From Pseudomonadota bacterium (lineage in GTDB: Bacteria > Pseudomonadota > Alphaproteobacteria > SHVZ01): DNA of 64,000 bases. The stretch is taken from contig JACQAG010000031.1 in NCBI GenBank assembly GCA_016195085.1, positions 124,001 to 188,000 on the forward strand. The letters run 5' to 3'. The notes below the pieces were generated by a model. The model was given only the letters and a program-made list of their open reading frames with translations, searched no databases and was not told where the DNA came from. Within the stretch, counting starts at the first letter, position 1; each line of letters opens with the position of its first letter. Shown here in pieces: positions 24,799 to 42,854 of the stretch. The position numbers and the translations under genes are program-made.

Positions 24799-24850
24799 TG
24801 GTCAGCTCCCGAAGATCCACGCCGGACGGTTGCCGACGGCCAGACTGGAT

Positions 24851-24950
24851 CGGATGACGCGCGACTTCAACGAGCTTGCGCACCATCAGTTTGTCTATAC
24901 ATATCTGCCTGTCGGAAGGCCTCCTGGCAAGGGTCTGCTTGCGGCGGCCT
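24851..24950 (+). repeat. direct repeat A, hutU-side copy of the operator segment
   Basis: These 100 bp match 34171-34270 at 81 of 100 positions without gaps, in the same orientation and exactly 9,320 bp apart. The best-conserved core covers TTTGTCTATACATATCTGCC. The two copies bracket the less GC-rich block with the split cucumopine-synthase-like pair, hyuAB, ABC transporter and RpiR gene. They look like the footprint of an insertion or segmental duplication. Confidence 0.8.
24889..24906. promoter_or_regulatory. HutC-type operator upstream of hutU
   Basis: The site reads AGTTTGTCTATACATATC. It holds GTCTATAC, which fits the GT-N-TA-N-AC core known for operators of the HutC subfamily of GntR regulators. 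It is about 90 bp upstream of the hutU ATG. Three sister sites precede hutC, the second transporter operon, and the dioxygenase/EamA pair. The rest of 24799-25026 shows no gene. Confidence 0.72.
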
Positions 24951-25026: not shown

Positions 25027-25575
25027 CTACTTCTCATGCAAAATCGCAGCGATCGAATCGAACTCGGCGGGAGTACGATGCGGAAATGCCACGCCTAGAT
25101 TCCATGGAAAAATGAAATGGATCCACCGGTGCATTCTGATGACGTAGGTCATCATCGCTCCGGTAAGCTCCACGTAATCTTCCTTGCTCGATAGTTGGTC
25201 GAGCGCATCCGCGTAGGTCTGCCCCATATCATGCATCTTGGTGAGGCCAAGATCCGCCATGAACTCGAAAACATTGAAGGTGCCGACAAGAAACTCCTTC
25301 GTCATCCGGACTATCGTCGAAAGTTCCACATCTGGATATTGCGACACTTTGAGGAAGCGATACATCACGTCGGCGCCGACCAGCATCAAATAGGCTTCAA
25401 GATGCACGAGCACGGTGAATGATTGCTTGCCGGTTCCGGCGCCGCTCTCGATGACACCCCAGCGGATCTTTTGAATCTCATTGGGCTCGGACAGCCAGAT
25501 TTGATCGATTTGCCGCTCGATCTCGGCCTTCGCCTGACGCCAATCGCCCTGGTATTTCTTGACTGCAGACATCAT
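25027..25575 (-). CDS. stand-alone helical-bundle protein, cucumopine-synthase C-domain-like
   Basis: A 182-residue all-helical protein. It aligns with the helical half of the two fused proteins at 36288 and 38329: EPNEIQKIRWG (here about 30-40) against EPEDLRKVRLG and EPDEIRQFRSG, and HFIFPWNLG (153-161) against YHYFPWYVG and FHYFPWGLG. Those halves correspond to the C-terminal helical bundle of cucumopine synthase. Its ATG overlaps the stop of the upstream cyclophilin-like gene (25572-25575), so the two are translated together and probably form a two-subunit version of the same enzyme. Base composition is visibly less GC-rich than the hut genes next to it. Role inferred. Confidence 0.72.
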   Translation of the reverse strand: MMSAVKKYQGDWRQAKAEIERQIDQIWLSEPNEIQKIRWGVIESGAGTGKQSFTVLVHLEAYLMLVGADVMYRFLKVSQYPDVELSTIVRMTKEFLVGTFNVFEFMADLGLTKMHDMGQTYADALDQLSSKEDYVELTGAMMTYVIRMHRWIHFIFPWNLGVAFPHRTPAEFDSIAAILHEK

Positions 25576-25994
25576 GCGGCTCCCCGAACTGTGACGCGCA
25601 CCAAATTCTTTTTGGGATTGGCCACGGTCTGCTCGTAGACGGACTGGCCGAGGCGGCGCAGGATCGGCAGATCGGACTCGACCACTTGTCCGAATTTGTT
25701 GATCGAAGCGCTCTCAGTGATGCTGCCGTAGCACAGACAGATGGTCTGTCCGGGCGCGTAGAGATAGACGGCGCCCAGCGTCCGGCGCACCATGTTGTTG
25801 CGCCCGAGATGAACGATCCTTGTCGGCAGCCAGAACGACTCGCCCGAAATGACGACATGCCCGAGCACGCTCTCGAGCGGTAGTCGCTTCACTACTTCGT
25901 CGACAACGTCCGGATTATCGTTGGCGAGCAATGCGACTTTGAATTTGAGATCCACGTCCGATGCGTGGAACTCAAGAAATGCGGGTGCCGACAT
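25572..25994 (-). CDS. stand-alone cyclophilin-like protein, cucumopine-synthase N-domain-like
   Basis: A 140-residue protein (from ATG 25994, preceded by GAGGGCAGG; an in-frame ATG at 26012 would add six residues). It matches the cyclophilin-like half of the fused proteins: HVVISGESFWLPT (46-58) against HPVVSGESVYAWT and HAVVTGESMYAWT, followed by GQTICLCYG and LGQSVYEQT. This fold is the N-terminal domain of cucumopine synthase and is related to DUF3830. The invariant His-x-Val-Val/Ile-(S/T)-G-E-S motif is kept, but the following Trp of the fused copies is changed. First gene of a two-gene unit, divergent from hyuA. Confidence 0.7.
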   Translation of the reverse strand: MSAPAFLEFHASDVDLKFKVALLANDNPDVVDEVVKRLPLESVLGHVVISGESFWLPTRIVHLGRNNMVRRTLGAVYLYAPGQTICLCYGSITESASINKFGQVVESDLPILRRLGQSVYEQTVANPKKNLVRVTVRGAA

Positions 25995-26012
25995 CTGCCT
26001 GCCCTCATCCAT

Positions 26013-26180: not shown

Positions 26181-28262
26181 ATGAAGAGCACACCGCACAT
26201 GCTGCAGCGACTACGGGTCGGTGTGGACTCAGGCGGTACCTTCACCGACATCTGCACGTTCGATGAGTCGGCTTGCAAAATTCACGTCTGGAAAGTTCCG
26301 AGTACGCCGCAAGACCCGTCGCTCGGGATCGCAACCGGTGTCGAGCAGGCGCTGAAGGAGCTGTCGGGGGCCGATGGCAAATGGCCGGACGTCGTATACT
26401 TCGGTCACGGCACGACCGTTGCCACGAACGCGCTCATTGCAGGCACCGGGGCCGAGACCGGGATGTTAACGACCGCTGGGTTCCGCGACATCCTGGAGCT
26501 GCGGCGACAGAAGCGCGATTCCCTCTACGACCTGCAGACCGAGAAACCGGAGATCCTTGCAAAACGAGACAAGCGGCTCGAGGTCCGTGAGCGCGTGCTT
26601 TTCGATGGGCGGATTCTGGTTGAGCTGCAGGAGGAAGATGTACGGGCGGCTGCGCGGAAGCTGCGTGCGGAAGGCGTCCAATCCGTCGCTGTTTGCTTCC
26701 TCTTCAGCTACATCGAGCCCCGGCATGAGCTGATGGTGAAGACGATCCTCGCTGAGGAGATGCCGGGGGCGTTTGTCAGTTCATCCCACGAGGTTGCCCC
26801 GGAATTTCGCGAATACGAGCGCTTTTCCACCACTGTGGTCAACGCCTATGTCGGCCCGATCATCAAAGACTATTTGGCACGATTGCAGCCGCGTTTGGCG
26901 AAGGCCGGCATCACTGTTCCACCCCATCTCATGCAGTCGAACGGCGGCACGATTTCCAGTGAAGCGGCCCAGAAATTTCCGGCGCGCACAGTGTTGTCCG
27001 GTCCAGCAGCTGGTGTTATGGGCGCTCTCGCAGTTGGGCGCCTGTCCGGCTTCGATAGCCTCATCACCTTCGATATGGGGGGCACCTCCACCGACGTGTC
27101 GCTTATCGATTCCGGCCGGATGACGACCTCGAGCAGTTCGATGATCCGCGGCTATCCGCTGAAGCTGCCGATGCTCGACATCCACACAGTCGGTGCCGGC
27201 GGAGGCTCGATCGCCCATGTCGACGCGGGCGGTTTGCTAAAGGTGGGGCCCCGCAGCGCCTCGGCCGATCCGGGACCGGTTTGTTACGGCCGCGGCAACC
27301 AAGAGCCTACCGTGACGGATGCGAATGTGGTCTTGCAGGTGCTCAACCCGAACCACCTACTAAACGGCCGACTGTCGATCAACCAGGCTTTGGCGAAACA
27401 GGCCATCATCCGCCTCGGCGAGCAGCTCGGCCTCGATCCGATGGCGACGGCGCAAGGCATCGTTAGCGTCGTCATCGCCAACATGACGAAGGCGATCAGA
27501 GTCATTTCCATCGAGCGAGGCTACGACCCGCGAGACTACGTGCTCTTCAGCTTCGGGGGTGCCGGTCCCTGCCATGCCGCGCGCCTGGCGAATGCGCTTG
27601 AGGTCCCGCGCATTGTGGTGCCGAAACATCCCGGCATTCTCTGTGCTCTTGGCCTGCTGCTGAGCGATATGCGCACCAGAGTATCCCTGACACGGCTGCA
27701 ACCGCTCTCCGAGGAATGCGCCGATAGCCTCTCAGAGCAGTTCACAAGCTTGGAACAACGCGTTGCGGCCTGGTTTGAGCGAGAGGCAATACCGTCCGAG
27801 CGCCGTTTGACGACCCGGTCAATCGACATGCGCTATGGTGGGCAGGGCTTTGAGCTCAACATCCCAGTTTCCGACGCCAGCTTCGATGCGGCCCAAATTG
27901 TGCGGCTCCAGGCAGACTTCGAATGCGCTCACCAGCAAGCCTACGGCTACATCGCCGAGGCCGAACCCATTCACATAACAACTTTGCGCGTCGAGGGTGT
28001 CGGCCTAGTGCCGAAGGCAGAGCTGCCGGCGCACTCGCCAGCCACCTCCGCTGTCGCTGATGCGCTCGCTGGCACGAGGCAGGTATGGCTGCCGGAGACA
28101 GGGGGATTTTCTGCTTTGCCCGTTTATGATCGGATTCGGCTTGGACCCGGACATCAGGTCATCGGGCCGGCAATCATCGAGCAGATGGACTCCACCACTT
28201 TGGTGCTGCCGGATCAGTCCGCGGCCGTGGATCCCTACCTCAACCTGGTCATCGAGCGGTAA
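26181..28262 (+). CDS. hydantoinase/oxoprolinase family subunit A
   Basis: A 693-residue HyuA-type protein. The ATP-binding start is VGVDSGGTFTDICTF (about 13-27), followed by FGHGTTVATNALIAGTGAETG, VVNAYVGPIIKDYL, LMQSNGGTISSE, the FDMGGTSTDVSLI loop and IHTVGAGGGSIAHVDAGG. HyuA/HyuB pairs open lactam, hydantoin or related rings, or carboxylate substrates, using ATP; 5-oxoprolinase and acetophenone carboxylase are relatives. It is coupled to hyuB (2-bp gap). Beside histidine genes, an imidazolone- or hydantoin-type ring is an attractive substrate, but that is inference. An alternative ATG lies six codons in. Confidence 0.88.
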   Translation: MKSTPHMLQRLRVGVDSGGTFTDICTFDESACKIHVWKVPSTPQDPSLGIATGVEQALKELSGADGKWPDVVYFGHGTTVATNALIAGTGAETGMLTTAGFRDILELRRQKRDSLYDLQTEKPEILAKRDKRLEVRERVLFDGRILVELQEEDVRAAARKLRAEGVQSVAVCFLFSYIEPRHELMVKTILAEEMPGAFVSSSHEVAPEFREYERFSTTVVNAYVGPIIKDYLARLQPRLAKAGITVPPHLMQSNGGTISSEAAQKFPARTVLSGPAAGVMGALAVGRLSGFDSLITFDMGGTSTDVSLIDSGRMTTSSSSMIRGYPLKLPMLDIHTVGAGGGSIAHVDAGGLLKVGPRSASADPGPVCYGRGNQEPTVTDANVVLQVLNPNHLLNGRLSINQALAKQAIIRLGEQLGLDPMATAQGIVSVVIANMTKAIRVISIERGYDPRDYVLFSFGGAGPCHAARLANALEVPRIVVPKHPGILCALGLLLSDMRTRVSLTRLQPLSEECADSLSEQFTSLEQRVAAWFEREAIPSERRLTTRSIDMRYGGQGFELNIPVSDASFDAAQIVRLQADFECAHQQAYGYIAEAEPIHITTLRVEGVGLVPKAELPAHSPATSAVADALAGTRQVWLPETGGFSALPVYDRIRLGPGHQVIGPAIIEQMDSTTLVLPDQSAAVDPYLNLVIER

Positions 28263-28264
28263 AG

Positions 28265-29941
28265 ATGGCTATTACCGCACAATCATTCGGTCTACGTGCT
28301 TCCGAGAGCAAAGCTTCGTTAGATCCCATCACGATCGAAGTGATCGGCAGCGCCTTGCTGAGCGTCGCCGAGGAGATGGGTAAGGCGATCATCCGCGCCG
28401 CCTACTCGACCAACATCAAGGAACGCCAAGACTGCTCCACCGCGCTATTCGACGAGCAGGGCCGCATCATCGCCCTGGCCGAGCACATACCCATTCACCT
28501 CGGCTCCCTGCTCGGTATCACCGAATATGTGATTAAGCGCCACGATCACTCGAGCTTCCGTCCGGGCGACGTCTTTGTGGGCAACGACGCTTATACCGGC
28601 GGTGGCACGCATCTGAACGACATCGTGCTACTGGAGCCCGTCTTCCACACCGGCGTGCTCACGGGCTGGGTTGCCAACCTTGCTCACCACTCAGACTTTG
28701 TCGACCGCGGCCACGCGCACATCTTTCAGGAAGGGCTGCGGATTCCACCCGTGCGGCTGTATCGCGAGGGCGTCCTGCAGGATGATGTGATGCAGCTCAT
28801 TCTGCTGAACTGCCAAGTTCCTTGGGAACGGGTGAACGATTTTCGCGCGCAAATGGCGGCTAGCCGGCTCGGTGTTCAGCGCTTCCAAGCGCTCTGCGAT
28901 AAGTATGGGCGCGAGATCGTCGTCGCCGCAGGCGCACGTATCCTCGACTATACGGAGCGTCGCGCCAGAGCCGGCATCGCCAAGATCCCGACGGGTGTCT
29001 ATGAGTTTCGCCATGCCTTCGATACCAATCTCATTGACGAAATCCTGGATCTGAAGGTCAGGGTCGAGGTCAAGGGCGGCGAGATCTTCGTAGATTTTCC
29101 CGATGCGCCGCCTCAGGTTCGCGCTCCCATAAACATGGTTGAGACGGCGCTGCTGGGGACAGTCTATTTCGCTGTTAAGGCTCTCATTGATCCCGAGATA
29201 CCTGCCAATGCGGGGCTTCATCGAGTCATTCATGTAACTGCGCCGGTCGGAAGCGTCCTCAACGCAACACCACCCGCTGCCGTATACAGCCGGACGGACA
29301 TCGCGCAGCGGCTCGTTGACATGATCTTCGCCGCCTTCTCGAAGAGCATTCCAGAGTGTGTTGCTGCTGCTTCGACCGGCGGGACGTTGCTCACGGTAAG
29401 CGGAATGCATCCCCTAACGGGCCGGTTCTATGTTTACAACGAGATGCATGGCGGCGGCATGGGAGCAAGGGCAACGAAGGATGGCCTCGACGGTGTGCAG
29501 GTCAACATCACCAACACAGCTAACCTGCCTATCGAAGCCTTGGAATCTGAATTCCCGGTCAGGGTCGAATGCTACGAGCTGCTTCAGGACTCCGGGGGGG
29601 CCGGCGAATACCGAGGCGGCATGACCATGCGCCGCCGGGTCAGAGTCTTGGATCACGTCGCGACGATTTCTGCGGGGGGCACGAGCAGCGTCATGCCTCC
29701 ATTTGGCCTGTCCGGTGGGTTGCCGGGTTGCCCTTCGCGGGTTGAGCTCTCCCAAGGAGCAGCTCCGCTGAACCGGCGTTCCGGCACTCTTCAGCCCGAC
29801 CAAACTGTCGGCATGGTCGCTGCCAGCGGCGGAGGGTTCGGCGATCCCAAAAAGCGAGATCGCAAGCTTGTCCTGCGGGATTTGAGGGAGGAGCGCATCT
29901 CACAGCGAGCCGCGGTCGAAATCTATGGCCTCAAATCCTAG
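28265..29941 (+). CDS. hydantoinase/oxoprolinase family subunit B
   Basis: A 558-residue HyuB-type protein. Signatures include DPITIEVIGSALLSVAEEMG, NIKERQDCSTALFD, LAEHIPIHLGS, DVFVGNDAYTGGGTHLNDIV, NLAHHSDFVDRG and the C-terminal PFGLSGGLPG. It is the partner of HyuA upstream, and together they should form an ATP-dependent ring-opening or carboxylating complex. An ABC importer of amino-acid type follows within 50 bp, which fits uptake and breakdown of one substrate. Confidence 0.88.
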   Translation: MAITAQSFGLRASESKASLDPITIEVIGSALLSVAEEMGKAIIRAAYSTNIKERQDCSTALFDEQGRIIALAEHIPIHLGSLLGITEYVIKRHDHSSFRPGDVFVGNDAYTGGGTHLNDIVLLEPVFHTGVLTGWVANLAHHSDFVDRGHAHIFQEGLRIPPVRLYREGVLQDDVMQLILLNCQVPWERVNDFRAQMAASRLGVQRFQALCDKYGREIVVAAGARILDYTERRARAGIAKIPTGVYEFRHAFDTNLIDEILDLKVRVEVKGGEIFVDFPDAPPQVRAPINMVETALLGTVYFAVKALIDPEIPANAGLHRVIHVTAPVGSVLNATPPAAVYSRTDIAQRLVDMIFAAFSKSIPECVAAASTGGTLLTVSGMHPLTGRFYVYNEMHGGGMGARATKDGLDGVQVNITNTANLPIEALESEFPVRVECYELLQDSGGAGEYRGGMTMRRRVRVLDHVATISAGGTSSVMPPFGLSGGLPGCPSRVELSQGAAPLNRRSGTLQPDQTVGMVAASGGGFGDPKKRDRKLVLRDLREERISQRAAVEIYGLKS

Positions 29942-29986
29942 CCGTCTGCCGGTTATTTGGATGCGGTCGCCGCAGGATTTGCGCCG

Positions 29987-30706
29987 ATGAGCCAACCCGA
30001 CTTCTTTGAGCTCGTTGGCTTCGGTCCGAATGGATGGGGCGCGGCGCTCCTGCTTGGAGCACTCATGACAGTCACAGTTGCCTTTTGCGGGCTATTGATC
30101 GGGTCCGCAATAGGAACGATGGGGGCTTGGGCAAAGATTTCGGGAGGGCCCATTCTCCGCGGCCTAGCAGACGCATACACGACCGTCCTTCGCGGTGTCC
30201 CAGACCTGCTCGTCATTTTCGTGGTCTATTTTGGAAGCAGCTCTGTGCTGACGACGCTTGGCCAGCTGTTTGGCGGCTCCGGATTCATCTCCTTCCCCGG
30301 CTTCCTCGCCGGCGCGATCGCAATCGGAGTCACGTCCGGAGCCCAGAGCACGGAGGTATTCCGGGGCGCCTATCACGCGGTCCACCGAGGCGAGATCGAT
30401 GCTGCGCGTGCGTGCGGCATGCCGACGTTCCTTCGATTTCGCCGGATCATCGCGCCGCTTACGTTGCGCCACGCTTTGCCTGCTCTGGGAAACGTATGGC
30501 TGGGCCTCCTGAAGGAGTCATCGCTCCTTTCAGCAACCGGCGTCACTGAACTCATGCGTCAGGCTCAGGTGGCTGCAGGGTCGACCCGGCTACCATTTCA
30601 TTTCTTTGTTTCTGCGGCTGCTCTCTACGCAATTTTAGCGACGGTGTCTGGCGTCGTCGCCCAGCGGTTCGAGATGCACTACTCGCGCGGCGTTCGGAGA
30701 GCTTAG
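29987..30706 (+). CDS. polar amino-acid ABC transporter permease
   Basis: A 239-residue permease of the HisQ/OccQ type, with about five membrane helices and the EAA loop (GEIDAARACGMPTFLRFRRI, near 135-155) that contacts the ATPase. I chose ATG 29987 with an AGGA about 10 bases upstream; a TTG at 29957 is an in-frame alternative. Its stop overlaps the GTG of the next permease by one base. Confidence 0.88.
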   Translation: MSQPDFFELVGFGPNGWGAALLLGALMTVTVAFCGLLIGSAIGTMGAWAKISGGPILRGLADAYTTVLRGVPDLLVIFVVYFGSSSVLTTLGQLFGGSGFISFPGFLAGAIAIGVTSGAQSTEVFRGAYHAVHRGEIDAARACGMPTFLRFRRIIAPLTLRHALPALGNVWLGLLKESSLLSATGVTELMRQAQVAAGSTRLPFHFFVSAAALYAILATVSGVVAQRFEMHYSRGVRRA

Positions 30707-31434
30707 TGGACCTTACGTTCATAGTTGATGCGCTGATTAAGATGGCGGCCGGGATTCCGTTGACGCTTCGGCTCGCCGCCAGCTCTGTCTTGCTAGGTGC
30801 TTTGCTCGGCTTAGCGCTTGCTCTGATGCGGCTAGCCGACATCGCATTACTTCGGGCATCCGCATGGATCTACATCCAGCTCATTCGAAGCGTTCCGCTG
30901 CTCGTCCTCATGTTTCTCGTGTACTACGGATTGGGACAATTTCAGCTCATTCGCAGCAGCGCGCTTTGGCCTTTCCTGCGAGAACCCTACTGGTGCGCAC
31001 TGACGGCTCTGACTATCAACACGTCCGCTTACGCAAGTGAGATCATCCGCGGCGGATTGCTTTCGGTTCCACGCGGCCAGATCGAGGCGGCGCGGGCTTG
31101 CGGCATGCCTCCGATCCTCATGTTTCGCCGGATCGTGCTGCCCATCGCAATACGGCAGGCCATCCCGGCCTACGGCAACGAGATCATCGCGATGGTCAAG
31201 GCGACGTCGCTAGCGTCTCTCGTAACCCTCATGGAAGTGACTGGCATCGCAACTTCGATTGCCTCCGAAACCTACCGTCCTGTCGAAGTCTTTGTCGCCG
31301 CAGGAATGATCTACCTGGGGATCAACTTTGCTCTCACGCGGGGAGTGGGCTTTCTCGAATACCGGCTCACAGCGCATCTGAGGCCACGGCCAGACAAGCC
31401 GTTGGCGGTGCTCGCAGCAGGTACGCCAACGTGA
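30706..31434 (+). CDS. polar amino-acid ABC transporter permease
   Basis: A 242-residue permease of the HisM/OccM type. The first helix TLRLAASSVLLGALLGLALA and the EAA loop GQIEAARACGMPPILMFRRI are clear. GTG start at 30706 overlaps the previous stop, and its own stop overlaps the ATPase GTG. The two permeases presumably pair as a heterodimer, as in the histidine, octopine and nopaline importers. Confidence 0.88.
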   Translation: MDLTFIVDALIKMAAGIPLTLRLAASSVLLGALLGLALALMRLADIALLRASAWIYIQLIRSVPLLVLMFLVYYGLGQFQLIRSSALWPFLREPYWCALTALTINTSAYASEIIRGGLLSVPRGQIEAARACGMPPILMFRRIVLPIAIRQAIPAYGNEIIAMVKATSLASLVTLMEVTGIATSIASETYRPVEVFVAAGMIYLGINFALTRGVGFLEYRLTAHLRPRPDKPLAVLAAGTPT

Positions 31435-32207
31435 GCTTATCAAACACGCGACCAACTGCCGTGTCTCTGCAGGACATACACAAGAGCTATGGCTCCATCG
31501 AGGTGCTCAAGGGAATCTCGCTCGAAGCCCATGAAGGAGAGGTGATCTCAGTCTTGGGCGTTTCGGGGTCAGGCAAGTCGACCATGCTTCGATGTATCAA
31601 CATGCTCGAGGTTCCGAACAGAGGTTCCGTAGCCATTGCAGGAGAGACGATTCGGTTAGAGCGGTTACGAAGTGGGGCCGTGCGTCCGGCGGATCAGAGC
31701 CAAGTCGATCGGATCCGTTCTCGGATCGGGATGGTGTTCCAGAGTTTTAATCTTTGGTCGCATCTGACGGTCTTAGAGAACGTCATCGAAGCGCCTATAC
31801 ATGTTCAGAAGAGACATCGCGCCGAATGCATCGAGGAAGCCGAAGCGCTTCTTGCCAAGGTCGGTATTGCCGATAAGCGGGATTTCTACCCGGCGCACCT
31901 TTCAGGCGGACAGCAGCAGCGCGCCGCGATCGCCAGAGCATTGGCGATGCACCCGATGCTGATGCTCTTTGATGAACCCACTTCAGCGCTCGATCCAGAA
32001 CTCGTCGGTGAAGTGCTGAGAGTGATGCGCGCTCTCGCGGAAGAGGGACGCACCATGCTGGTAGTGACCCATGAAATGAGCTTTGCGCGGGATGTCTCCA
32101 CGCGCGTTGTGTTTTTGCACGAAGGCGTAGTCGAGGAGGACGGAACGCCAGCCGAGGTCTTCGGCGGAAGCCGATCGGACCGCGTTCGGCAATTCATCGC
32201 AGGTTAG
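31431..32207 (+). CDS. polar amino-acid ABC transporter ATP-binding protein
   Basis: A 258-residue ATPase of the HisP/OccP type. Walker A is GVSGSGKST, the Q-loop sits in IGMVFQSFNLW, the signature is LSGGQQQR, and Walker B is LMLFDEPTSALD followed by the switch histidine in VVTHEMSF. The longer spacer ahead of the Q-loop (VRPADQSQVDRIRSRIG) is typical of the histidine/octopine subgroup. It starts at GTG 31431 within a GTGA overlap. It may also energise the second transporter (35318-38198), which lacks an ATPase gene. Confidence 0.9.
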   Translation: MSLSNTRPTAVSLQDIHKSYGSIEVLKGISLEAHEGEVISVLGVSGSGKSTMLRCINMLEVPNRGSVAIAGETIRLERLRSGAVRPADQSQVDRIRSRIGMVFQSFNLWSHLTVLENVIEAPIHVQKRHRAECIEEAEALLAKVGIADKRDFYPAHLSGGQQQRAAIARALAMHPMLMLFDEPTSALDPELVGEVLRVMRALAEEGRTMLVVTHEMSFARDVSTRVVFLHEGVVEEDGTPAEVFGGSRSDRVRQFIAG

Positions 32208-32268
32208 TCCGTAAGTTGCGGAAGCTTCGGGTGCTGGTTCTTGGATCAAGAAGTAAGGGGAACGTGAA

Positions 32269-33123
32269 ATGTTGAAACTCATCATTCGTGTGCTTGCTTC
32301 GGTATTCGCTGCTGTTTACCTGCTGGGCGGCGCTCAAGCCCAGGACAAGAAATGGACGGAAGTGCGGATTGCGACGGAAGGCGGGTTCCTGCCTTGGAAC
32401 TTTACGAAGCCAGATGGAACACTTGGCGGCTTCGAGATCGATCTTGCGAACGACTTGTGCGCCAGGATGAAAGTGAAATGCGTAATCACCGCACAGTCGT
32501 TCGACAGCATGATCCCCGCGCTCAATGCCGGAAAATACGACGCCCTCATTGACGACGTCGCGATCACGCCTAAGCGGGAAGAAGCGATCGCATTCTCCAT
32601 CCCGTACGCCGCTCTCTGCTACACACTTGGAACACTGAAGGGCAGCGACATCTCGAACAAGTTGCCGCCGGAAGACAAGATCTATTCACTCACCGACGAA
32701 GCCTCGTCTGGCAAGGCTCTCGACGCAATTAAGCCGGTGATCAAGGACAAGGCGATCGGTACCTTGTCTGCGGGTACGTCCGTGACATTCGTCGAAACGT
32801 ATTTCAGCGGCGTCTCGCTGATGCGCCAATACAAGACTCCCGAAGCACGTGACCTGGATCTCGTGGCGGGCCGTGTGGATTTGATCATCGGGTCGAAAGA
32901 TGCGCTTTTGGGCATAGCCAAGAAGGCGGGAAACGAGAACATCACTATTGCCGGGCCCTGCTTTCAGGGTGGGGTCGTTGGCAAGGGCGCCGGGGTTGGT
33001 TTGCGCAAAGCGGACGTGGAGTTGAAGGCGCTGTTCGACAAGGCGATCCGGGAAGCGCAGGCCGACGGCACGATTAAGCGACTGTCCGAGGCGACGTTCG
33101 GCATGGACGTTACGCCTCAGTGA
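32269..33123 (+). CDS. opine/histidine-type substrate-binding protein
   Basis: A 284-residue periplasmic binding protein with a signal peptide ending at GGAQAQ (residue 25). The segment ATEGGFLPWNFTKPDGTLGG then FEIDLANDLCARM is typical of HisJ, lysine/arginine/ornithine, octopine and nopaline binding proteins. It keeps DDVAITPKREEAIAFS from the ligand-closing region. The class binds cationic amino acids and amino-acid-derived opines, so a histidine or imidazole-opine ligand is plausible. Last gene of the hyuAB-transporter operon. Confidence 0.87.
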   Translation: MLKLIIRVLASVFAAVYLLGGAQAQDKKWTEVRIATEGGFLPWNFTKPDGTLGGFEIDLANDLCARMKVKCVITAQSFDSMIPALNAGKYDALIDDVAITPKREEAIAFSIPYAALCYTLGTLKGSDISNKLPPEDKIYSLTDEASSGKALDAIKPVIKDKAIGTLSAGTSVTFVETYFSGVSLMRQYKTPEARDLDLVAGRVDLIIGSKDALLGIAKKAGNENITIAGPCFQGGVVGKGAGVGLRKADVELKALFDKAIREAQADGTIKRLSEATFGMDVTPQ

Positions 33124-34170: not shown

Positions 34171-34270
34171 AGGATCGCACGCGACGTCAACGCGCTTGCG
34201 CCGCGTCCGTTTGTCTATACATATCTGCCCGTCGGGAGGGTCGCTGGCAAGGGGCTGTTTGCGGCGGTCT
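34171..34270 (+). repeat. direct repeat B, hutC-side copy of the operator segment
   Basis: Copy of 24851-24950, 81 of 100 bases identical. After 34270 similarity resumes past an extra 20 bp or so: the GCGGCCTGCTTGG word of copy A is found again near 34286. The copies share orientation although hutU and hutC point in opposite directions, as expected if one divergent operator region was duplicated. Confidence 0.8.
34209..34226. promoter_or_regulatory. HutC-type operator upstream of hutC
   Basis: The site reads CGTTTGTCTATACATATC, nearly the same as the hutU copy and with the same GTCTATAC core. It is about 160 bp upstream of hutC, so HutC probably controls its own gene. Confidence 0.72.
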
Positions 34271-34383
34271 GCCATGGTTGCCGCGGCCTGCTTGGATCTG
34301 TAAAACCGCAGGCGCCTCGGTCGATCGAGACGGCGCCGGGAGCAGTCCGAAGAGCGGAGGACGACCAAGATGAGGAGACAGCG

Positions 34384-35106
34384 TTGAAATCCGAGGCCGC
34401 CATTCCGCGATATACCGAGATACAGCGAGCGCTCGAAGCGCAAATCATGTCGGGCGCTTGGCAGCCGGGGCACCGGGTGCCGGCGGAGCACGAGCTGTTG
34501 GAGCAGTACAGTTGCTCGCGCATGACGGTGAGCAAGGCGCTGTCGGCTCTTGCCGCCGCGGGCCTCATCATTCGCAAGCGCCGGTCGGGTTCATTCGTCG
34601 CCTCGCGCGTCTCTGAGGAGACCGTTCTCGAGATTCACGATACCAAAGCCGAGATCCTCGCCAGCGGCAAGCCCTACAGCTATGAGATCCTGTCCCGGCG
34701 ACTCCGCTCCGCGACCCGCAAGGACGTGCGGCGCTTCGGCGTCCCGACCAAGACTAGGGTCCTGGCGCTGCTGGTTCGCCATTTCTCCGGCGACCAGCCC
34801 TTCGTGATCGAAGATCGCATCTTCAACCTGACCGTCGTTCCCGACGCCGCGCAGGAGCAGTTCAAGCACACCCCGCCCAGCAGTTGGCTCTTGAAGCGCA
34901 TCCCGTGGACGAATACCGAGCATGCTATCTGGGCGACACCGGCATCCGGCAACATGGCGAGCCGGCTGGGCATCGCCAATGGGACCGCATGCCTGGTGGT
35001 CGAGCGCAAGACCTGGCAGCTCGGCGCGCCCGTGACCTTCGTCCGCCTGACCTATCCAGGAAAGCTGCACCGGCTCATCGGCCGCTTCCGCCCCGCATCC
35101 TCTTGA
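34384..35106 (+). CDS. hutC: histidine utilization repressor, GntR/HutC family
   Basis: A 240-residue regulator with a GntR winged helix (residues about 8-75: IPRYTEIQRALEAQIMSGAW, PAEHELLEQYSCSRMTVSKA) and a UTRA ligand domain. The UTRA part carries LLVRHFSGDQPFVIEDRIFN and the TEHAIWATPAS segment typical of HutC, whose ligand is urocanate. Start at TTG 34384 behind GAGGAGA; the ATG at 34371 runs into a stop after five codons. Four matching operators in the window define its likely local regulon: hutUH, itself, the transporter/cucumopine-synthase-like operon, and the dioxygenase/EamA pair. Confidence 0.92.
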   Translation: MKSEAAIPRYTEIQRALEAQIMSGAWQPGHRVPAEHELLEQYSCSRMTVSKALSALAAAGLIIRKRRSGSFVASRVSEETVLEIHDTKAEILASGKPYSYEILSRRLRSATRKDVRRFGVPTKTRVLALLVRHFSGDQPFVIEDRIFNLTVVPDAAQEQFKHTPPSSWLLKRIPWTNTEHAIWATPASGNMASRLGIANGTACLVVERKTWQLGAPVTFVRLTYPGKLHRLIGRFRPASS

Positions 35107-35254: not shown

Positions 35255-35272
35255 ATTATGTCTATACTTAAT
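35255..35272. promoter_or_regulatory. HutC-type operator upstream of the second transporter operon
   Basis: The site reads ATTATGTCTATACTTAAT, one base away from the perfect palindrome at 40129. A second half-like word, CATGTCTATG, follows at 35280. The site is 46 bp before the ATG of the binding-protein gene. The remainder of 35107-35317 shows no gene. Confidence 0.75.
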
Positions 35273-35317: not shown

Positions 35318-36163
35318 ATGTGGGGACCCAAGCTCGGAGCGGCGCTCGCGCTGCTCGCCTTGGCTGAATTCACACTCGGTTCGGGCGCTCGCGCTCAGAC
35401 GATTGTGGCTTCGGAGGTCTTCAAGAAAGCCGGCGAGATCTCATTTTGCAGCGAGCTTGCCGATCCGCCCGCCGCTTATCTGGCGGCGGATGGAACCACG
35501 CCGGATGGCTTCGAGGTCGACATCATGAGCGCCATCGGCCGAGCGCTCGGCGTGCGCGCGGACATAAGAAACTACAAATTCGCCGCGATTTTCGCCGCGC
35601 TCGATTCCGGAAAATGCGACGCGGTGATGTCGCAGACCTCCAAGAGCCCGGAACGGCTGCAGAAATACCTCTTCGTCGACATCCGCCAGCAGGGGTCGGG
35701 GCTGCTGGTGAAGGCGGGGAACCCCCTCAACCTGCAAACCTATTTGGACCTTTCCGGCCGGCGCGTCGCCGTCCTTCTCGGCAGCGCCAACGAACGCCGG
35801 TTGCAGGAGGCGAATACGAAGCTCGCGGCCGAGAACAAGGCGCCGATGGCGATCGCTTCATACGCGACCAACGTCGCCGCTTTCCAAGAGCTCGACCTCG
35901 GCCGCGTCGACGCGTTCGTGAGCGGTTCGTTGACGCTCGCCTTTTTCCTGAACAAGAGCGGCGCCAAGTTCGTGATCGGCGGCATGCCGGTGCCGCCGAC
36001 CACGCTGGGGGCGCTCTTCCCCAAGGACCAGGTCGAGAAGGCGGAGGCGGTGAAAGCGGTCTACGCGTCCCTGGTCGCCAACGGCGAGATCAAGAAGATC
36101 GTGGACAAGTGGGGCGTCGGCCAGGGCACCTCGATATGCGGCGGCGGGTTCACATGCGATTGA
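35318..36163 (+). CDS. amino-acid-type ABC substrate-binding protein
   Basis: A 281-residue periplasmic binding protein with a signal peptide (MWGPKLGAALALLALAEFTL, cleaved near GARAQ). The SBP_bac_3 pattern is visible: GEISFCSELADPPAAYLAAD, GFEVDIMSAIGRALGV, CDAVMSQTSKSPER. Start at ATG 35318 behind GAGAGGAGG; an in-frame ATG upstream lies within the operator region and is unlikely. It belongs to the family of the protein at 32269 but is distant from it, so the two importers need not share ligand. First gene of a HutC-linked operon. Confidence 0.86.
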   Translation: MWGPKLGAALALLALAEFTLGSGARAQTIVASEVFKKAGEISFCSELADPPAAYLAADGTTPDGFEVDIMSAIGRALGVRADIRNYKFAAIFAALDSGKCDAVMSQTSKSPERLQKYLFVDIRQQGSGLLVKAGNPLNLQTYLDLSGRRVAVLLGSANERRLQEANTKLAAENKAPMAIASYATNVAAFQELDLGRVDAFVSGSLTLAFFLNKSGAKFVIGGMPVPPTTLGALFPKDQVEKAEAVKAVYASLVANGEIKKIVDKWGVGQGTSICGGGFTCD

Positions 36164-36287: not shown

Positions 36288-37271
36288 ATGGGTCGCAAGA
36301 TCGACATCCGCTGGCCGGAGCTGGACATCACCGTCGTCGCCGAGCTTGCCGACGAGACCAACCCCGAGCTCTGCGAGGAGTTTTGGCAGCACCTGCCCTT
36401 CAAGGTGCTGCAGGCACACCCGGTCGTATCGGGAGAATCGGTCTATGCCTGGACGCCGATCGTGAGCACGGCGCCGGTTCGGCACCGCGAGCAGATCATG
36501 AACTGCCCGGTAGGGCGCCTGCGGTATTCACAGGCGACCGGCAACAAGTTCTCGGTGCAATACGGCAGAGGGCTCGAGCCGCTGGCACAGCCGGTGCTGG
36601 GCATGGTCTTGCCCGAATACCATGCGCAGCTGCCGATCGTCGGCAAGGCGATCTGGGAAAATGTATTTTGGCGGAAGGAGCTCCTCTTCGTCGTGGTCTC
36701 GCAGCACGGTGCGAAGGGCCAGGGCGCGGCGCGATCCGGTGGTCGCGGGCTGCCCGACGTGGCGAGGATGTTCATCGAGGAAGCCGAGCGCATTCAGACG
36801 GTCGAGCCCGAGGACCTGAGGAAGGTGCGCCTCGGCCAGATCGGCGACACCGGCACCTACGGGCAATACTTCACCGCCTGGGATTTCGTGAACGGGATGC
36901 TGCGCGACTACATCATGTACACGATCTTTCCGCTTCTGCGCCTTGCGGACAAGCTCGGGCCGAAGGAGATCAGCGCCTCCTTGGATGAGTTCGATCCACC
37001 CTATTCGGAGTATCTCTCCTATTCCGGCTTGGTGACGCTCGAGCGCTTCGCCAAGGCGCTCCGCGCCGCCGTCCGCGAGGCGAAAAGCGCCGAGGAGGTG
37101 AAGGTGCTGTTACGCGCCTTCCTGCGCTACGGAAATCGCCTCTGCGCCTGGTCCTATCACTACTTTCCTTGGTATGTCGGCATGTTCTATGGCCGTCAGG
37201 TCAACGGCCAGGAGCTGCCCGGGCGCTGGAACCCGGCCGCCGCCGCCGCGCCCGCGGCCGCGGCGGAGTAG
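36288..37271 (+). CDS. cucumopine synthase-like protein, normal domain order
   Basis: A 327-residue cytoplasmic protein with no signal peptide. Residues 1-140 are cyclophilin-like, with the motif HPVVSGESVYAWTP (44-57). Residues 173-305 are the helical bundle, with YGQYFTAWDF (191-200) and SYHYFPWYVG (289-298). Length and order match cucumopine synthase, the Ri-plasmid enzyme that condenses L-histidine with 2-oxoglutarate. A long Gly/Ala-rich linker (near 141-155) and an Ala-rich tail are extra. It lies between a binding protein and a permease in an operon behind a HutC site. The product could be a related imidazole opine, or the protein could run the reaction backwards. Confidence 0.75.
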   Translation: MGRKIDIRWPELDITVVAELADETNPELCEEFWQHLPFKVLQAHPVVSGESVYAWTPIVSTAPVRHREQIMNCPVGRLRYSQATGNKFSVQYGRGLEPLAQPVLGMVLPEYHAQLPIVGKAIWENVFWRKELLFVVVSQHGAKGQGAARSGGRGLPDVARMFIEEAERIQTVEPEDLRKVRLGQIGDTGTYGQYFTAWDFVNGMLRDYIMYTIFPLLRLADKLGPKEISASLDEFDPPYSEYLSYSGLVTLERFAKALRAAVREAKSAEEVKVLLRAFLRYGNRLCAWSYHYFPWYVGMFYGRQVNGQELPGRWNPAAAAAPAAAAE

Positions 37272-37334: not shown

Positions 37335-38198
37335 GTGACCGCCCGTTGGGAGTTGGCAGGTCCCGATCTCACGGGCGGCGCATCGGGCGCGGAGGAAGGA
37401 TTGCAGTTCGATCTGACGTTTTTCCTCGGCTTCGTCTTTCATCCGCCGGCCTCGCTGCTCTTCGGGCTGTGGATCACCGTTGCCTCGACGGTGCTGGCGA
37501 TGGCGATGGGGGTATTCCTCGGAGTCCTGCTGGCGATCGCCGGTCTCGGGCGCTCGCGTCTCCTCAGGTCCTTCAACCAGGTCTACATCGCCTTCTTCCG
37601 CGGCACGCCGATCCTTGTGCAGCTGATGCTGATCTATTTCGGCCTGCCGTATCTGATGGGCGGATTCGATCTGTTTCCCCCCGTCATCTCTCTAGGCCCG
37701 CTCGTCCTCAACGGTGCCATGGTCGCCGGCATCGTCGCATTCGGGCTGCACGAAGCCGCCTATATGAGCGAGATCACCCGGGCCGGCATCTCCTCCATCG
37801 ATCCGGGCCAGGCCGAAGCGGCGAAGTCTCTCGGCATGGCCCGAGCCTTGACCATGCGCAAGGTCATTCTGCCGCAGGCGGTCCGCGTGATCATTCCGCC
37901 GCTCGGCAACCAATTCAACGCGATGTTCAAGACGACATCTTTGCTCAGCGTGATCGCCGTGCCCGAGATGTTCCACATCGCCGATGCCATCCACGCCGCC
38001 ACCTATCGGACCTTCGAGGTGTATCTCGGCGTGTCGGTCTACTACCTCGTTCTCACCGGGATCTGGACGGTCCTGCAGCGCCGCCTCGAAGCGCATCTCA
38101 AGACCGAGTTCGTGGCGACGCCGGCCCGTCGGGCAAAGCCGAAGCGGCGCGCCCCATCCCCGGGCCGCGCCGGCTGGTCAGCGCATCCGAGGGAATGA
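37335..38198 (+). CDS. polar amino-acid ABC transporter permease
   Basis: A 287-residue permease with about five helices and the EAA loop GQAEAAKSLGMARALTMRKV, then ILPQAVRVIIPPLGNQFNAM. The start is GTG 37335; a TTG 22 codons downstream is possible. The C-terminus has a long basic Arg/Pro/Lys tail. No second permease or ATPase gene is nearby, so it probably works as a homodimer with an ATPase from elsewhere, for example the one at 31431. Confidence 0.85.
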   Translation: MTARWELAGPDLTGGASGAEEGLQFDLTFFLGFVFHPPASLLFGLWITVASTVLAMAMGVFLGVLLAIAGLGRSRLLRSFNQVYIAFFRGTPILVQLMLIYFGLPYLMGGFDLFPPVISLGPLVLNGAMVAGIVAFGLHEAAYMSEITRAGISSIDPGQAEAAKSLGMARALTMRKVILPQAVRVIIPPLGNQFNAMFKTTSLLSVIAVPEMFHIADAIHAATYRTFEVYLGVSVYYLVLTGIWTVLQRRLEAHLKTEFVATPARRAKPKRRAPSPGRAGWSAHPRE

Positions 38199-38328
38199 GC
38201 AACGGGCACAGGGGCGCGTCCAGGGGCATTTCGACAGCCCCGGCCATCGCCACGCGCGGCCTTCCGATGGAAGGCGCATTGCGGGCGGACAGCCGGGTCG
38301 ACAGCGGCGATCACCGGAGACTTTAGCG

Positions 38329-39282
38329 ATGAATTTCTCGAGCTTGTCCGAGCTAACCGATGCGTTGAAGGCTCGAACTTCCGAAATGATGACCGACGAG
38401 CCGGATGAGATTCGGCAGTTCCGCAGCGGCACGCTGGAGAACAAAGCGGGAAGCTACGGCCAGTATTTCGGAACCTGGGATATCGCCGCCGGCATGGTGC
38501 GCGACTATTCCATGTACACGATGTATCCAATCCTGCAGCTTGCCGAGAACCCTCGATTGGACCACGAGCAGTTTCGCGCCGTTTTGGAAGCCTTAGATCC
38601 GCCCTACAGCAACTACCTTCGCTACAGCGGCTTTCCGCAGATGGGCGAATATGCCGCCGCCCTGCGATCGCTCATCGGCCGCAATCAGTCGCGCGACGAG
38701 GTGATACAGGCGATGCGGGCTTACGTCGCCTATACCAATCGCATGGCCGCATGGTCGTTCCACTACTTTCCATGGGGGCTCGGCAAGCATTTCCAGTACG
38801 CCGAGCCGGACGTAGCGCCGCCGGACATCAGCGACCTGAAGCGCCGCGTGCGGATCAAGAACGGACAGCCCATCCGCCTGACCTGGCAGCCGCTCGGCGT
38901 GTCGGTCAAAGCGGTGTTGGCGACCAACGAGAACCCGGAGCTCTGCGAGGATCTCTTGCGAGCACTCCCCTTCACCATCCTCCAGGACCATGCTGTCGTT
39001 ACCGGCGAGTCCATGTATGCCTGGACGCCGGTCGTCAGCACGGCGCCGATCCGCGTGCGCGAGCGGATTTGCGATGCGCCCCGCGGCCGGCTTCGCTACT
39101 CGCAATCGACCGGTCAGAAGCTCATCGTCCAGTACGGCCCGACGACGGAGGATCTGGCGCAACCGGTGCTGGGCGAGGTGCTCGAGCCGGATGCCGCCCG
39201 GCTCGCCGCGGTCGGGCGCAAGGTCTGGGAAAGCACCTACGAGACGAAGGAACGGATCTGGCTGACCGTGGAGGCCGCTTAG
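38329..39282 (+). CDS. cucumopine synthase-like protein, reversed domain order
   Basis: A 317-residue protein with the same two domains as the 36288 product but in the opposite order. The helical bundle comes first (about 20-160: YGQYFGTWDI at 44-53, SFHYFPWGLG at 143-152), and the cyclophilin-like domain second (about 178-317: HAVVTGESMYAWTP at 221-234). All motifs are intact, so the protein is probably functional. ATG 38329 follows GGAGA. It lies 130 bp after the permease gene and 12 bp before the convergent dioxygenase gene. In effect it is a circular permutation of its neighbour, most simply formed from split genes or from a tandem pair. Confidence 0.75.
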   Translation: MNFSSLSELTDALKARTSEMMTDEPDEIRQFRSGTLENKAGSYGQYFGTWDIAAGMVRDYSMYTMYPILQLAENPRLDHEQFRAVLEALDPPYSNYLRYSGFPQMGEYAAALRSLIGRNQSRDEVIQAMRAYVAYTNRMAAWSFHYFPWGLGKHFQYAEPDVAPPDISDLKRRVRIKNGQPIRLTWQPLGVSVKAVLATNENPELCEDLLRALPFTILQDHAVVTGESMYAWTPVVSTAPIRVRERICDAPRGRLRYSQSTGQKLIVQYGPTTEDLAQPVLGEVLEPDAARLAAVGRKVWESTYETKERIWLTVEAA

Positions 39283-39294: not shown

Positions 39295-40104
39295 TCAGGC
39301 GGGTGGAGCCCGCCAGACCACGGGAAAGGCTTCGCAATCCATGATGGCGCCGTCCTCAGGCGCGCCGGTCGGCGGCGGCGGCGGCGACATCTTTCCCGAC
39401 CGCCGGCGGAAGCGCGCATCGTCTCCGGTCCAGCGCGTGGAGAGCACGCGGCGCCGCCGGCTCGCGGAGGCGTTCCCGGCCGCGCCATGCAGCGCGAGCC
39501 CATGAAAGATCACGCAGTCGCCGGGCTCGACGGCCCAGCCGATGATGCGGTGATCGCCCGGGTCGATGACGGGGAGGACCTCCCAGCGCGGATCGTCGTT
39601 CTCCCTGAGGCTGCCGTCGACGAACCGTTGCGGACGATACCATTTTCCGGCGCGATGCGATCCGGCGACGAACTCCAAGGTGATATCCCGCGGAACTGGA
39701 TCGACCGACAGCCACATGGTGCAGAAGTTCCAGCCGTCGACCGGACTATAGGGCTGGTCCTGGTGCCAGGGGGTGCGCTTTTCCGCGCCCGGCTCTTTGA
39801 CCAGGACGTGATCGTGCAGGAAGTTGACCTTGCTTGACCCCATCAGCTCGGCGGCCACGAGGCTTGCCGGCGACCGGCGCATGAATGCCTCAAACTCCGG
39901 GATCCGCCGCCAGTTGTCGCTGTCCTGGAAGAAGCGCCGCGTATCGCCGTCGGCATAGCTCGCGTGATCGCTGGGCTCGCGCATGTTGCGGGCGATCCCT
40001 TCCTCGACCAGCGCCAGCCAATCGCCGGAGAAGGCCCTGCGCATGCAGACGGCTCCATCCGCTTGGAACGAGCGTAGATGCTCGGCATCGATCAGGCTTG
40101 TCAT
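39295..40104 (-). CDS. phytanoyl-CoA dioxygenase (PhyH) family protein
   Basis: A 269-residue Fe(II)/2-oxoglutarate-dependent oxygenase. The iron ligands are His114 and Asp116 (TPWHQDQPYS) and His206 (LHGAAGN), and an Arg that can hold 2-oxoglutarate lies at 217-219. Start at ATG 40104; the frame is open upstream through the operator, which rules out the longer version. The perfect HutC-type operator is 25 bp upstream. Members of this superfamily hydroxylate amino acids and their derivatives (for example ectoine), so a histidine-derived substrate is likely but unproven. Confidence 0.85.
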   Translation of the reverse strand: MTSLIDAEHLRSFQADGAVCMRRAFSGDWLALVEEGIARNMREPSDHASYADGDTRRFFQDSDNWRRIPEFEAFMRRSPASLVAAELMGSSKVNFLHDHVLVKEPGAEKRTPWHQDQPYSPVDGWNFCTMWLSVDPVPRDITLEFVAGSHRAGKWYRPQRFVDGSLRENDDPRWEVLPVIDPGDHRIIGWAVEPGDCVIFHGLALHGAAGNASASRRRRVLSTRWTGDDARFRRRSGKMSPPPPPTGAPEDGAIMDCEAFPVVWRAPPA

Positions 40105-40128
40105 GAGGCAGGTTCGTAGTCGGTCCCG

Positions 40129-40146
40129 ATTATGTCTATACATAAT
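40129..40146. promoter_or_regulatory. perfect HutC-type operator between dioxygenase and EamA genes
   Basis: The site reads ATTATGTCTATACATAAT: 7-bp perfect arms ATTATGT/ACATAAT around CTAT. It is the best of four sites and lies 25 bp upstream of the dioxygenase ATG and 23 bp upstream of the EamA ATG, so one bound repressor could cover both promoters. Confidence 0.8.
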
Positions 40147-40168
40147 TGGGAAGAGCGCCATTGTCCAG

Positions 40169-41167
40169 ATGTTGCGCTGGCGCGAACCCGGCATTCGGGT
40201 CACACTCCCGCCCGCGATGACCACGCCCGTGCGTCAAGCGGCAAGTGCCGCCGAGCCGCCGCCGGCCGAGCCGCGAGCGGCCGCCGCGGCACCGACTATC
40301 TCCGACGATCGACCCATCCTCGGCATGGCGTTAATGGTCGCCGGCATCATCGTCTTCTCGGTCATGGATGGGCTGTCGAAATATCTCACCAACGGCTACA
40401 GCCCGATCGAGATCGCCTGGATCCGCTACGTATTCCTGCTCGCCTGCCTGATCCCGGCGCTCATCGCCGAAGGCCCCAGCCGCGGCCTCGCCACGCCCAA
40501 TCCGGGACTGCAGATCCTGCGCGGCCTCGGCATGCTGGGCTCGACCCTGCTCTTCATCCTGGCCCTCGCCAACCTACCGATCGCCGATGCGACGGTGATC
40601 GGCCTGTTGTCGCCGTTCATCGTCGCCGCCGCCTCGCTGCCGATGCTGGGCGAGCGCGTCGGCGTCAGCCGGTGGCTCGCCATCCTGGCCGGCTTCGCCG
40701 GGGTCATGGTCGCGGTCCAGCCCGGGAGCGATGCGTTCCGCTGGGCAGCGCTCTTTCCGCTCCTGGCCTCGGCAGCCTGGGCGCTCGCCTTTCTTATCAC
40801 AAGGCAGGCGCGCGAAGCGGATTCGAGCCAGGTCATGCTGGGCTACACCGGGCTGGTCGGCGCCGCGGTCACCACGCTTGCCTTGCCCTTCGTCTGGGTT
40901 TGGCCCACCCCGGCCGATTGGCTGGTTATGCTGGCCGCTTCCGGCTGTTACGCCTTGGCGCAATGGCTGCTGGTGCTCGCGCTCCGCTTCGCCTCGGCGG
41001 CGCTGGTGGCCCCGTTGTCCTACACCCAGATCGTCTGGGCCGGTCTCATCGGCGCGCTCTTCTTCGGCACCACCCCCGATCTTGCCACCGTGATCGGCAG
41101 CCTCATCATCGTTGCCAGCGGCATCTTCATCTGGCACCACGAGCGCCGGGCGGCCACCCCACGCTGA
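40169..41167 (+). CDS. EamA/DMT family transporter (HutC-linked)
   Basis: A 332-residue membrane protein with ten predicted helices in two EamA repeats, first helix ILGMALMVAGIIVFSVMDGL. Start at ATG 40169, just after the operator; ATG 40217 (MTTPVRQ) is a shorter option and neither has a strong ribosome binding site. EamA proteins mostly export or exchange amino acids and small metabolites, including opine-type metallophores in other bacteria. Its shared operator with the dioxygenase suggests it moves a product of this pathway. Confidence 0.85.
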   Translation: MLRWREPGIRVTLPPAMTTPVRQAASAAEPPPAEPRAAAAAPTISDDRPILGMALMVAGIIVFSVMDGLSKYLTNGYSPIEIAWIRYVFLLACLIPALIAEGPSRGLATPNPGLQILRGLGMLGSTLLFILALANLPIADATVIGLLSPFIVAAASLPMLGERVGVSRWLAILAGFAGVMVAVQPGSDAFRWAALFPLLASAAWALAFLITRQAREADSSQVMLGYTGLVGAAVTTLALPFVWVWPTPADWLVMLAASGCYALAQWLLVLALRFASAALVAPLSYTQIVWAGLIGALFFGTTPDLATVIGSLIIVASGIFIWHHERRAATPR

Positions 41168-42044: not shown

Positions 42045-42854
42045 ATGCGACCGTTTCGGTTCCAAGAGGGCTCCACGCCGCTTCTGGTGAGCTGCCCCCA
42101 TGTCGGGACCCACATCCCGGGCGAGTTCGCCATCGGCATGACTCCGGCGGCGCTCGAGGTTCCCGACACCGACTGGCATGTGGACCGCCTCTACGACTTC
42201 GCCCGCGATCTCGGCGCCGGCATGCTGGTCGCGACCTATTCGCGCTACGTCATCGACCTCAACCGCCCGCCCGATGGCGCGCTCCTCTATCCCGGTGCCA
42301 GCAATACCGAGCTGGTGCCGACGACCCGGTTCGACTTCCAGCCGATCTATCGCGAGGGCGCCAGTCCCGACCGGGCGGCGATCGATCGACGCATCGGGAG
42401 CTATTGGCGGCCCTATCACGACCAGCTCGCCCGGGAGCTCGGGCGCCTCAAGCAGACATTCGGTTACGCGCTCTTGTGGGATGCGCATTCGATCCGCTCG
42501 CTGGTGCCGCGCTTCGCGCCGGAGCGCCTGCCCGATCTCAATCTCGGCAGCGGCGGCGGCAGCTCCGCCGATCCGGCGCTGGCTGAAAGGCTGGCGGCCT
42601 TGGCGGCCGAGGCGTCGGCCTTCACCAGCGTGCTCAACGGCCGCTTCAAGGGCGGCTACATCACCCGCGCCTATGGCAAACCCGCCGATGGCATCGAGGC
42701 GATCCAGCTCGAGCTGGCGCAAGCGACATACATGGACGAGGCGCCGCCTTGGCGCTATCGACCGGATCTGGCCGACCGCGTGCGGCCGGTGCTCAGCCGG
42801 TTCCTGGAGACGATGCTGGCGTGGCGGCCGGAGATGAAACGCGCCGCGTCTTAG
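42045..42854 (+). CDS. hutG: N-formylglutamate deformylase
   Basis: A 269-residue member of the N-formylglutamate amidohydrolase family, which releases formate and glutamate at the end of the five-step histidine pathway. Family blocks: LLVSCPHVGTHIP near the start, DTDWHVDRLYDFA, YVIDLNRPPDGALLYPG, WRPYHDQLARELGRLK, LWDAHSIRS, and GYITRAYG. A HutG that uses formylglutamate means the organism should also have HutF (formiminoglutamate deiminase), which is not in the window. No HutC-type site is visible upstream. Confidence 0.9.
   Translation: MRPFRFQEGSTPLLVSCPHVGTHIPGEFAIGMTPAALEVPDTDWHVDRLYDFARDLGAGMLVATYSRYVIDLNRPPDGALLYPGASNTELVPTTRFDFQPIYREGASPDRAAIDRRIGSYWRPYHDQLARELGRLKQTFGYALLWDAHSIRSLVPRFAPERLPDLNLGSGGGSSADPALAERLAALAAEASAFTSVLNGRFKGGYITRAYGKPADGIEAIQLELAQATYMDEAPPWRYRPDLADRVRPVLSRFLETMLAWRPEMKRAAS

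Follow-up and report, generated by a model that had tools for sequence, protein, structure and literature searches.

A HutC-type operator shared by a MysH-like oxygenase and an EamA transporter in an alphaproteobacterial locus resembling cucumopine-type opine catabolism

Introduction

In this work we ask why a PhyH-family oxygenase and an EamA-family transporter, encoded by divergent genes in an alphaproteobacterial genome, face one another across a single HutC-type operator, and whether the compound they act on is being made or consumed. The two genes lie within a 64-kb stretch of a draft contig, referred to here in its entirety as the window. An initial annotation proposed that the pair hydroxylates and exports a histidine-derived product, possibly a secreted, metal-binding imidazole compound. 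Below we describe the operator, the genes around it (Table 1) and the relatives of both proteins, and set this proposal against alternatives in which the oxygenase takes part in the uptake and breakdown of a histidine-derived compound.

Results

The operator between phyH and eamA

Sequence coordinates confirm that phyH and eamA diverge from a common HutC-type site, ATTATGTCTATACATAAT, which as an 18-mer is separated by 24 bp from the PhyH ATG and by 22 bp from the EamA ATG; the 25 and 23 bp given previously are right within counting convention. The arms of the site carry CATAAT in both directions, and a sigma70 scan found no sigma70-like promoter there. The initial annotation had called the operator perfect, which is a slight overstatement: 8 of the 9 palindrome pairs match, and TGTATAGACA, the core on one strand, differs by one base from the Pseudomonas HutC consensus TGTA-N2-TACA, the footprinted core of that repressor (PMC12977541). 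The same TGTATAGACA variant also precedes hutH-hutU in the Enterobacterales described below.

Sites matching TGTMTAKACA with at most one mismatch occur four times in the 64-kb window against 0.5 expected, a count reached in 0 of 100 shuffles. Searching with the extended 18-mer (up to three mismatches) recovered only the sites at 40129 and 35255 in the window, where 0 were expected, and the same two were the only matches to this pattern in the whole 4.8-Mb genome, the reversed-pattern control giving 0. With a matrix built from 8 operators of gene clusters in four Enterobacterales, from which window sequences were left out, the four HutC-type sites of the window occupied the first four ranks over 64 kb, at 40129 (21.0 bits), 34208 (16.8), 24888 (16.5) and 35255 (14.6), followed by a next non-overlapping score of 3.8. 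The site between phyH and eamA is thus the best-scoring in the window, as had been annotated. The ten-base core TGTMTAKACA is found at four further places in the genome; since the reversed-pattern control gave 3, and since the neighbours of three of these places (PIN/NTP-transferase, cupin, TetR/PNPOx) have no relation to histidine, with few ORFs around the fourth, these sites were treated as background.

The remaining window sites lie upstream of hutU, upstream of hutC and, at 35255, ahead of the run importer-Cuc2-permease-Cuc3. About 110 bp around the hutU and hutC operators (24828-24965 and 34148-34285) are copies of one another, roughly 75-80% identical by eye, so that one promoter region has probably been duplicated. 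Only one protein in the genome, the window HutC (34384-35106), scores above the TIGR02018 cut-off, and in our tree it groups with the regulators of opine plasmids and of the Enterobacterales clusters described below, not with canonical HutC (support 100/99). On sequence grounds, the four sites are predicted operators of this single HutC repressor.

Table 1. Genes and HutC-type sites of the window (positions within the 64-kb stretch)
Feature	Position	Strand	Remarks
hutH, histidine ammonia-lyase	21412..22950	-	
hutU, urocanase	23071..24798	-	TIGR01228 E 7e-289
HutC-type site upstream of hutU	24888..24905	.	pattern + matrix
Split cucumopine-synthase-like pair	25027..26012	-	25572-26012 cyclophilin-like; 25027-25575 helical bundle
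Hydantoinase/oxoprolinase subunits A and B	26181..29941	+	
Second amino-acid ABC importer	29957..33123	+	two permeases, ATPase, binding protein
HutC-type site upstream of hutC	34208..34225	.	pattern + matrix
HutC	34384..35106	+	TIGR02018 274 bits, cut-off 220
HutC-type site ATTATGTCTATACTTAAT	35255..35272	.	45 bp upstream of binding-protein gene
Amino-acid ABC importer binding protein (family 3)	35318..36163	+	start re-assigned to ATG 35318 behind GGAGAGAGGAGG
Cuc2, cucumopine-synthase-like	36288..37271	+	cyclophilin-like + helical-bundle order
Amino-acid ABC permease	37335..38198	+	
Cuc3, permuted Pictet-Spenglerase/cucumopine-synthase-like	37984..39282	+	true start downstream of 37984; homology from ~38332
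PhyH-family Fe(II)/2OG oxygenase, MysH-like	39295..40104	-	ATG at 40104, coding to 39298 + stop
HutC-type operator ATTATGTCTATACATAAT	40129..40146	.	between divergent phyH and eamA
EamA/DMT-family transporter	40169..41167	+	PF00892 E 2e-23; start 40169 or 40217 uncertain
N-formylglutamate amidohydrolase (HutG-like)	42045..42854	+	

Gene content of the locus and of opine plasmids

The 21-39 kb part of the window holds hutH, hutU and hutC, a hydantoinase A/B pair and two ABC importers for amino acids. Three cucumopine-synthase-like systems lie there too, each laid out differently: split genes (25027-26012), the order of cucumopine synthase itself (CUS; 36288-37271) and a permuted order (38260-39282); the latter two, Cuc2 and Cuc3, are fused proteins with opposite domain orders. 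The cyclophilin-like half of the split pair (25572-26012) is 25% identical to Cuc2 over that domain, and Cuc3 is clearly homologous to Pictet-Spenglerases of solved structure. A HutG-like gene follows just past eamA, with no HutC-type site found beside it, and a carbon-nitrogen hydrolase gene adjoins hutH (19993-20886); hydrolases of this kind recur by hutH/hutU in other alphaproteobacteria (L077:414-1376, L079:18072-18989).

Cuc2 shares 68-70% identity (about 503 bits) with its counterparts on pRi2659, pAtAg67 and A. vitis plasmids, and scores 115 bits against the solved cucumopine synthase. In the three plasmid regions compared, Cuc2 relatives are accompanied by hutG, hutI, hutF, hutH and hutC, a Cuc3-like protein, hydantoinase A/B and an importer for amino acids; hutU lies at the edge. 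The plasmid pAtAg67 has been described as octopine/cucumopine-catabolic (PMC10745273), and for hydantoinase A/B of Ti plasmids a role in opening lactam opines has been suggested (PMC6733357); judging from gene content, the plasmid block compared here would be the tested catabolic region. In terms of sequence, the combination of a CUS-like enzyme with hutC, hut genes, hydantoinase A/B and an ABC importer in the window matches such a cucumopine-type catabolic locus. Since Cuc2 is far closer to the opine-plasmid proteins than to the solved cucumopine synthase, we favour a catabolic role for the locus, in which the Cuc enzymes would probably run in the direction of histidine. Operator cores of the form TGTNTANACA were absent from the Ri/Ti plasmid regions searched.

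The PhyH oxygenase and its relatives

The oxygenase matches PF05721 (E 5e-24; 86.1 bits, cut-off 22) and its neighbour PF00892 (E 2e-23), which upholds both domain calls of the initial annotation. Residues H114, D116, H206 and R218/R219 of PhyH are invariant in 35 aligned sequences and provide the predicted HxD...H facial triad and 2OG-binding Arg of an Fe(II)/2OG oxygenase. In an AlphaFold model (pLDDT 95) the closest fold is that of MysH (Foldseek rank 1; VIA-align Z 32, rmsd 2.0; 27 for SnoK); by sequence, too, MysH is the closest PDB entry (E 3e-39, 34% identity). For MysH, hydroxylation of a glycine substituent has been proposed as the step that releases it (PMC10510106); by analogy, the probable reaction of PhyH is hydroxylation at a carbon adjacent to nitrogen, with cleavage of the C-N bond. 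Scanned PhyH neighbours were hut, opine-type and transport genes, with no mycosporine/MAA (palythine) genes among them.

By sequence, the nearest PhyH proteins are those of Acerihabitans, Erwinia typographi, 'Martelella alba' and Sodalis (62-67% identity), which together with the window protein form one clade (SH-aLRT 100%). All four Enterobacterales clusters have the same order, namely hutC-type regulator, binding protein, permease, ATPase, cuc2 and phyH, with TGTATATACA sites, and in 4/4 genomes phyH directly follows cuc2. Each of the four genomes also has hutU; near it lie a second, canonical HutC and operators whose flanks differ. Comparison of loci L178-L181 with L016-L019 shows two HutC paralogs in these Enterobacterales with differing operator flanks, mostly CTTGTATAGACAAG near hut and ATTTGTATATACATA at the cluster. 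Nine PhyH residues are specific to the Cuc2-linked clade, among them S62, L96, S120 and T129, and some flank the triad, such that a shift in substrate may have taken place. Cuc2 is present in only 1 of 385 alphaproteobacterial genomes, yet it occurs with this PhyH in two distant lineages; their co-occurrence is therefore above background and points to a joint function. Horizontal transfer would account for the spread of the PhyH-Cuc2 unit between these lineages.

More distant alphaproteobacterial PhyH proteins (46-58%) repeatedly occur in hut neighbourhoods, including one locus (L075) in which hutH-phyH-hutU form a single run. A HutC-type core lies 36-142 bp upstream of seven of these distant phyH genes, against 0.41 expected from the loci-wide background (Poisson P 3e-7, uncorrected for kinship, two of the seven being close relatives), and five of the seven also have hutH and hutU within 10 kb. 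The hut-linked distant proteins do not form a single clade in our tree, and no Cuc2 or Cuc3 was found near them in the alphaproteobacterial loci scanned, so PhyH may act on something other than a Cuc product, such as a plain histidine derivative. With the PhyH-regulator-Cuc2 linkage in four Enterobacterales and these relatives at hut genes, membership of PhyH in a histidine/imidazole-opine catabolic regulon is well supported, and the earlier connection of the oxygenase with histidine/imidazole metabolism is borne out. Elsewhere, PhyH relatives occur near an aromatic amino-acid lyase 38-40% like HutH (L118:8297-9829, L110, L115, L126), possibly a different imidazole or amino-acid lyase; at L118 the PhyH relative is adjacent to this lyase and a HutC-type site lies near the PhyH start.

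The EamA transporter

The shared site at 40129 is the sole tie of EamA to the regulon, and were the in-frame ATG at 40217 the true start, the operator would lie 70 bp away. The best EamA relatives are at most 44% identical, one of them a paralog from another part of this genome, and none of ten such loci has a hut gene, PhyH or operator nearby. The four Enterobacterales clusters have no EamA counterpart, and three of the four genomes give no match at E 1e-8. EamA reached no named-exporter equivalog in NCBIfam (best TIGR00950, 45.6 bits against a cut-off of 230), has no solved-structure relative by sequence and was not found in viral contigs. Pfam hits of the main ORFs over 18-49.6 kb include no metallophore biosynthesis genes, opine dehydrogenase or TonB receptor.

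At loci L038-L043, in the same family, a PhyH relative (48-51%) has three to six EamA genes in a tandem array next to it. A general pairing of PhyH with EamA was rejected, and the arrays were left out as evidence, because EamA genes are common and the array copies are only 24-29% identical. We consider membrane transport of a substrate or an overflow product, inward or outward, the probable role of EamA.

Discussion

The site at 40129, the gene set and the conservation of the PhyH-regulator-Cuc2 unit tie the oxygenase to the uptake and breakdown of histidine-derived opines, compounds of the plant-tumour type, and it is thus more likely to help consume a compound than to make or export one. We judge it somewhat probable that the window regulon is a relative of the cucumopine-type opine-catabolic locus under HutC control, in which phyH and eamA are both derepressed by an imidazole inducer. 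HutC would keep four promoters shut until urocanate or a related imidazole releases them, and its departure from the 40129 site would derepress the divergent phyH and eamA together. The importer would take up a histidine-derived opine or similar compound, which hydantoinase A/B, the Cuc enzymes and PhyH may then unmask. In such a scheme the Cuc enzymes would probably free histidine from Pictet-Spengler-type adducts, and PhyH would most likely oxidise an imidazole amino acid or opine beside nitrogen, giving fragments usable by the hut pathway. HutH and HutU, with later steps, would break down the histidine, while EamA would probably carry substrate or overflow product across the membrane. Several findings weigh against this scheme: the Ri/Ti plasmids do without PhyH within 10 kb of Cuc2, hut-linked PhyH elsewhere occur with no Cuc gene nearby, the clade-specific residues may reflect another substrate, EamA shows no conserved link, and neither a sigma70-like promoter at the 40129 site nor TGTNTANACA cores in the plasmid regions were found.

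The opposite direction, in which an imidazole opine is built from histidine by the Cuc enzymes, hydroxylated by PhyH and exported by EamA, possibly as a metallophore, appears quite improbable to us. EamA proteins export opine metallophores in other bacteria, the operator is common to EamA and PhyH, and Cuc3 is clearly related to solved Pictet-Spenglerases, a type of enzyme that can be biosynthetic, as in StnK2 (PMC7955054). However, Cuc2 shares some 503 bits with opine-plasmid proteins against 115 with the solved synthase, the PhyH unit is accompanied by importers, hydantoinase and hut genes, and the Enterobacterales units dispense with EamA. The surrounding genes match catabolic plasmid loci, and the hydroxylation and export of a histidine-derived product that had been envisaged is not supported. 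The link of the oxygenase to histidine/imidazole metabolism is supported; EamA is not conserved with the PhyH-regulator-Cuc2 unit. Metallophore export, and with it the secreted metal-binding product, was rejected for the same lack of conservation together with the absence of an exporter equivalog, and of metallophore genes, opine dehydrogenase or TonB receptor among the Pfam hits of the proteins scanned.

EamA may also be set apart from the oxygenase: that HutC controls PhyH only, with EamA an unrelated neighbour facing the site, has in our view a little less than an even chance, and is compatible with a catabolic explanation for PhyH. The isolation of its relatives at ten loci and the uncertain EamA start argue for this, whereas the centring of the 40129 site between the two predicted starts, with CATAAT arms in both directions, argues against it. 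For the oxygenase itself, a role in ordinary histidine utilisation, for example on N-methylhistidine or another N-substituted histidine, with its move into an opine locus in this lineage and the Enterobacterales incidental, seems unlikely. PhyH relatives do occur in or beside hut genes without Cuc in six loci (L075, L077, L079, L083, L092 and L106), most of which carry a HutC-type site, and its fold relative MysH cleaves C-N bonds; against this, the window protein falls in a distinct clade that is found only with Cuc2 and has its own conserved residue changes.

Returning to the catabolic reading that we prefer, we tentatively suggest a broader scenario, which we regard as speculative and more doubtful than not: a MysH-like oxygenase may recur in HutC regulons, unmasking histidine from N-substituted or Pictet-Spengler-type imidazoles, and may here have been joined with reversed cucumopine-synthase-like enzymes outside Agrobacterium. 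If so, the histidine-utilisation regulon would have an oxygen-dependent entry step, of which we found no description; a literature search on this PhyH oxygenase family in histidine utilisation returned no relevant paper. Alphaproteobacteria and Enterobacterales would then have, outside Agrobacterium, homologues of the catabolic genes of opine plasmids as candidate degraders of histidine-derived compounds. PhyH, Cuc2 and the regulator with its own operator form a defined target for finding the substrate, and the locus could serve to check whether enzymes resembling cucumopine synthase operate in reverse during catabolism.

Among known systems, cucumopine-type Ri, Ti and opine-catabolic plasmids share with the window Cuc2, a Cuc3-like protein, hutH, hutC, hydantoinase A/B and an ABC importer. 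The window in addition has PhyH and EamA, whereas the plasmids have neither within 10 kb of Cuc2, which implies that opine catabolism does not require PhyH; the window, whose regulon we regard as chromosomal-type, also lies on a draft contig that may be of plasmid origin. Solved Pictet-Spenglerases of the StnK2/9ns6 type and cucumopine synthase (3x27) have both domains in common with Cuc2 and Cuc3, and differ in that the window enzymes sit in a catabolic gene context. MysH, the Fe/2OG oxygenase of palythine biosynthesis, shares with PhyH the HxD...H facial triad, the fold and the best sequence match, but PhyH is 34% identical to it and occurs in a hut/opine context. Finally, the HutC-controlled hut regulon of Pseudomonas has in common with the window a HutC family repressor, an operator resembling TGTA-N2-TACA, and hutH with hutU; in contrast, the window HutC groups with opine-type regulators, and its regulon holds the oxygenase, EamA and opine-type genes.
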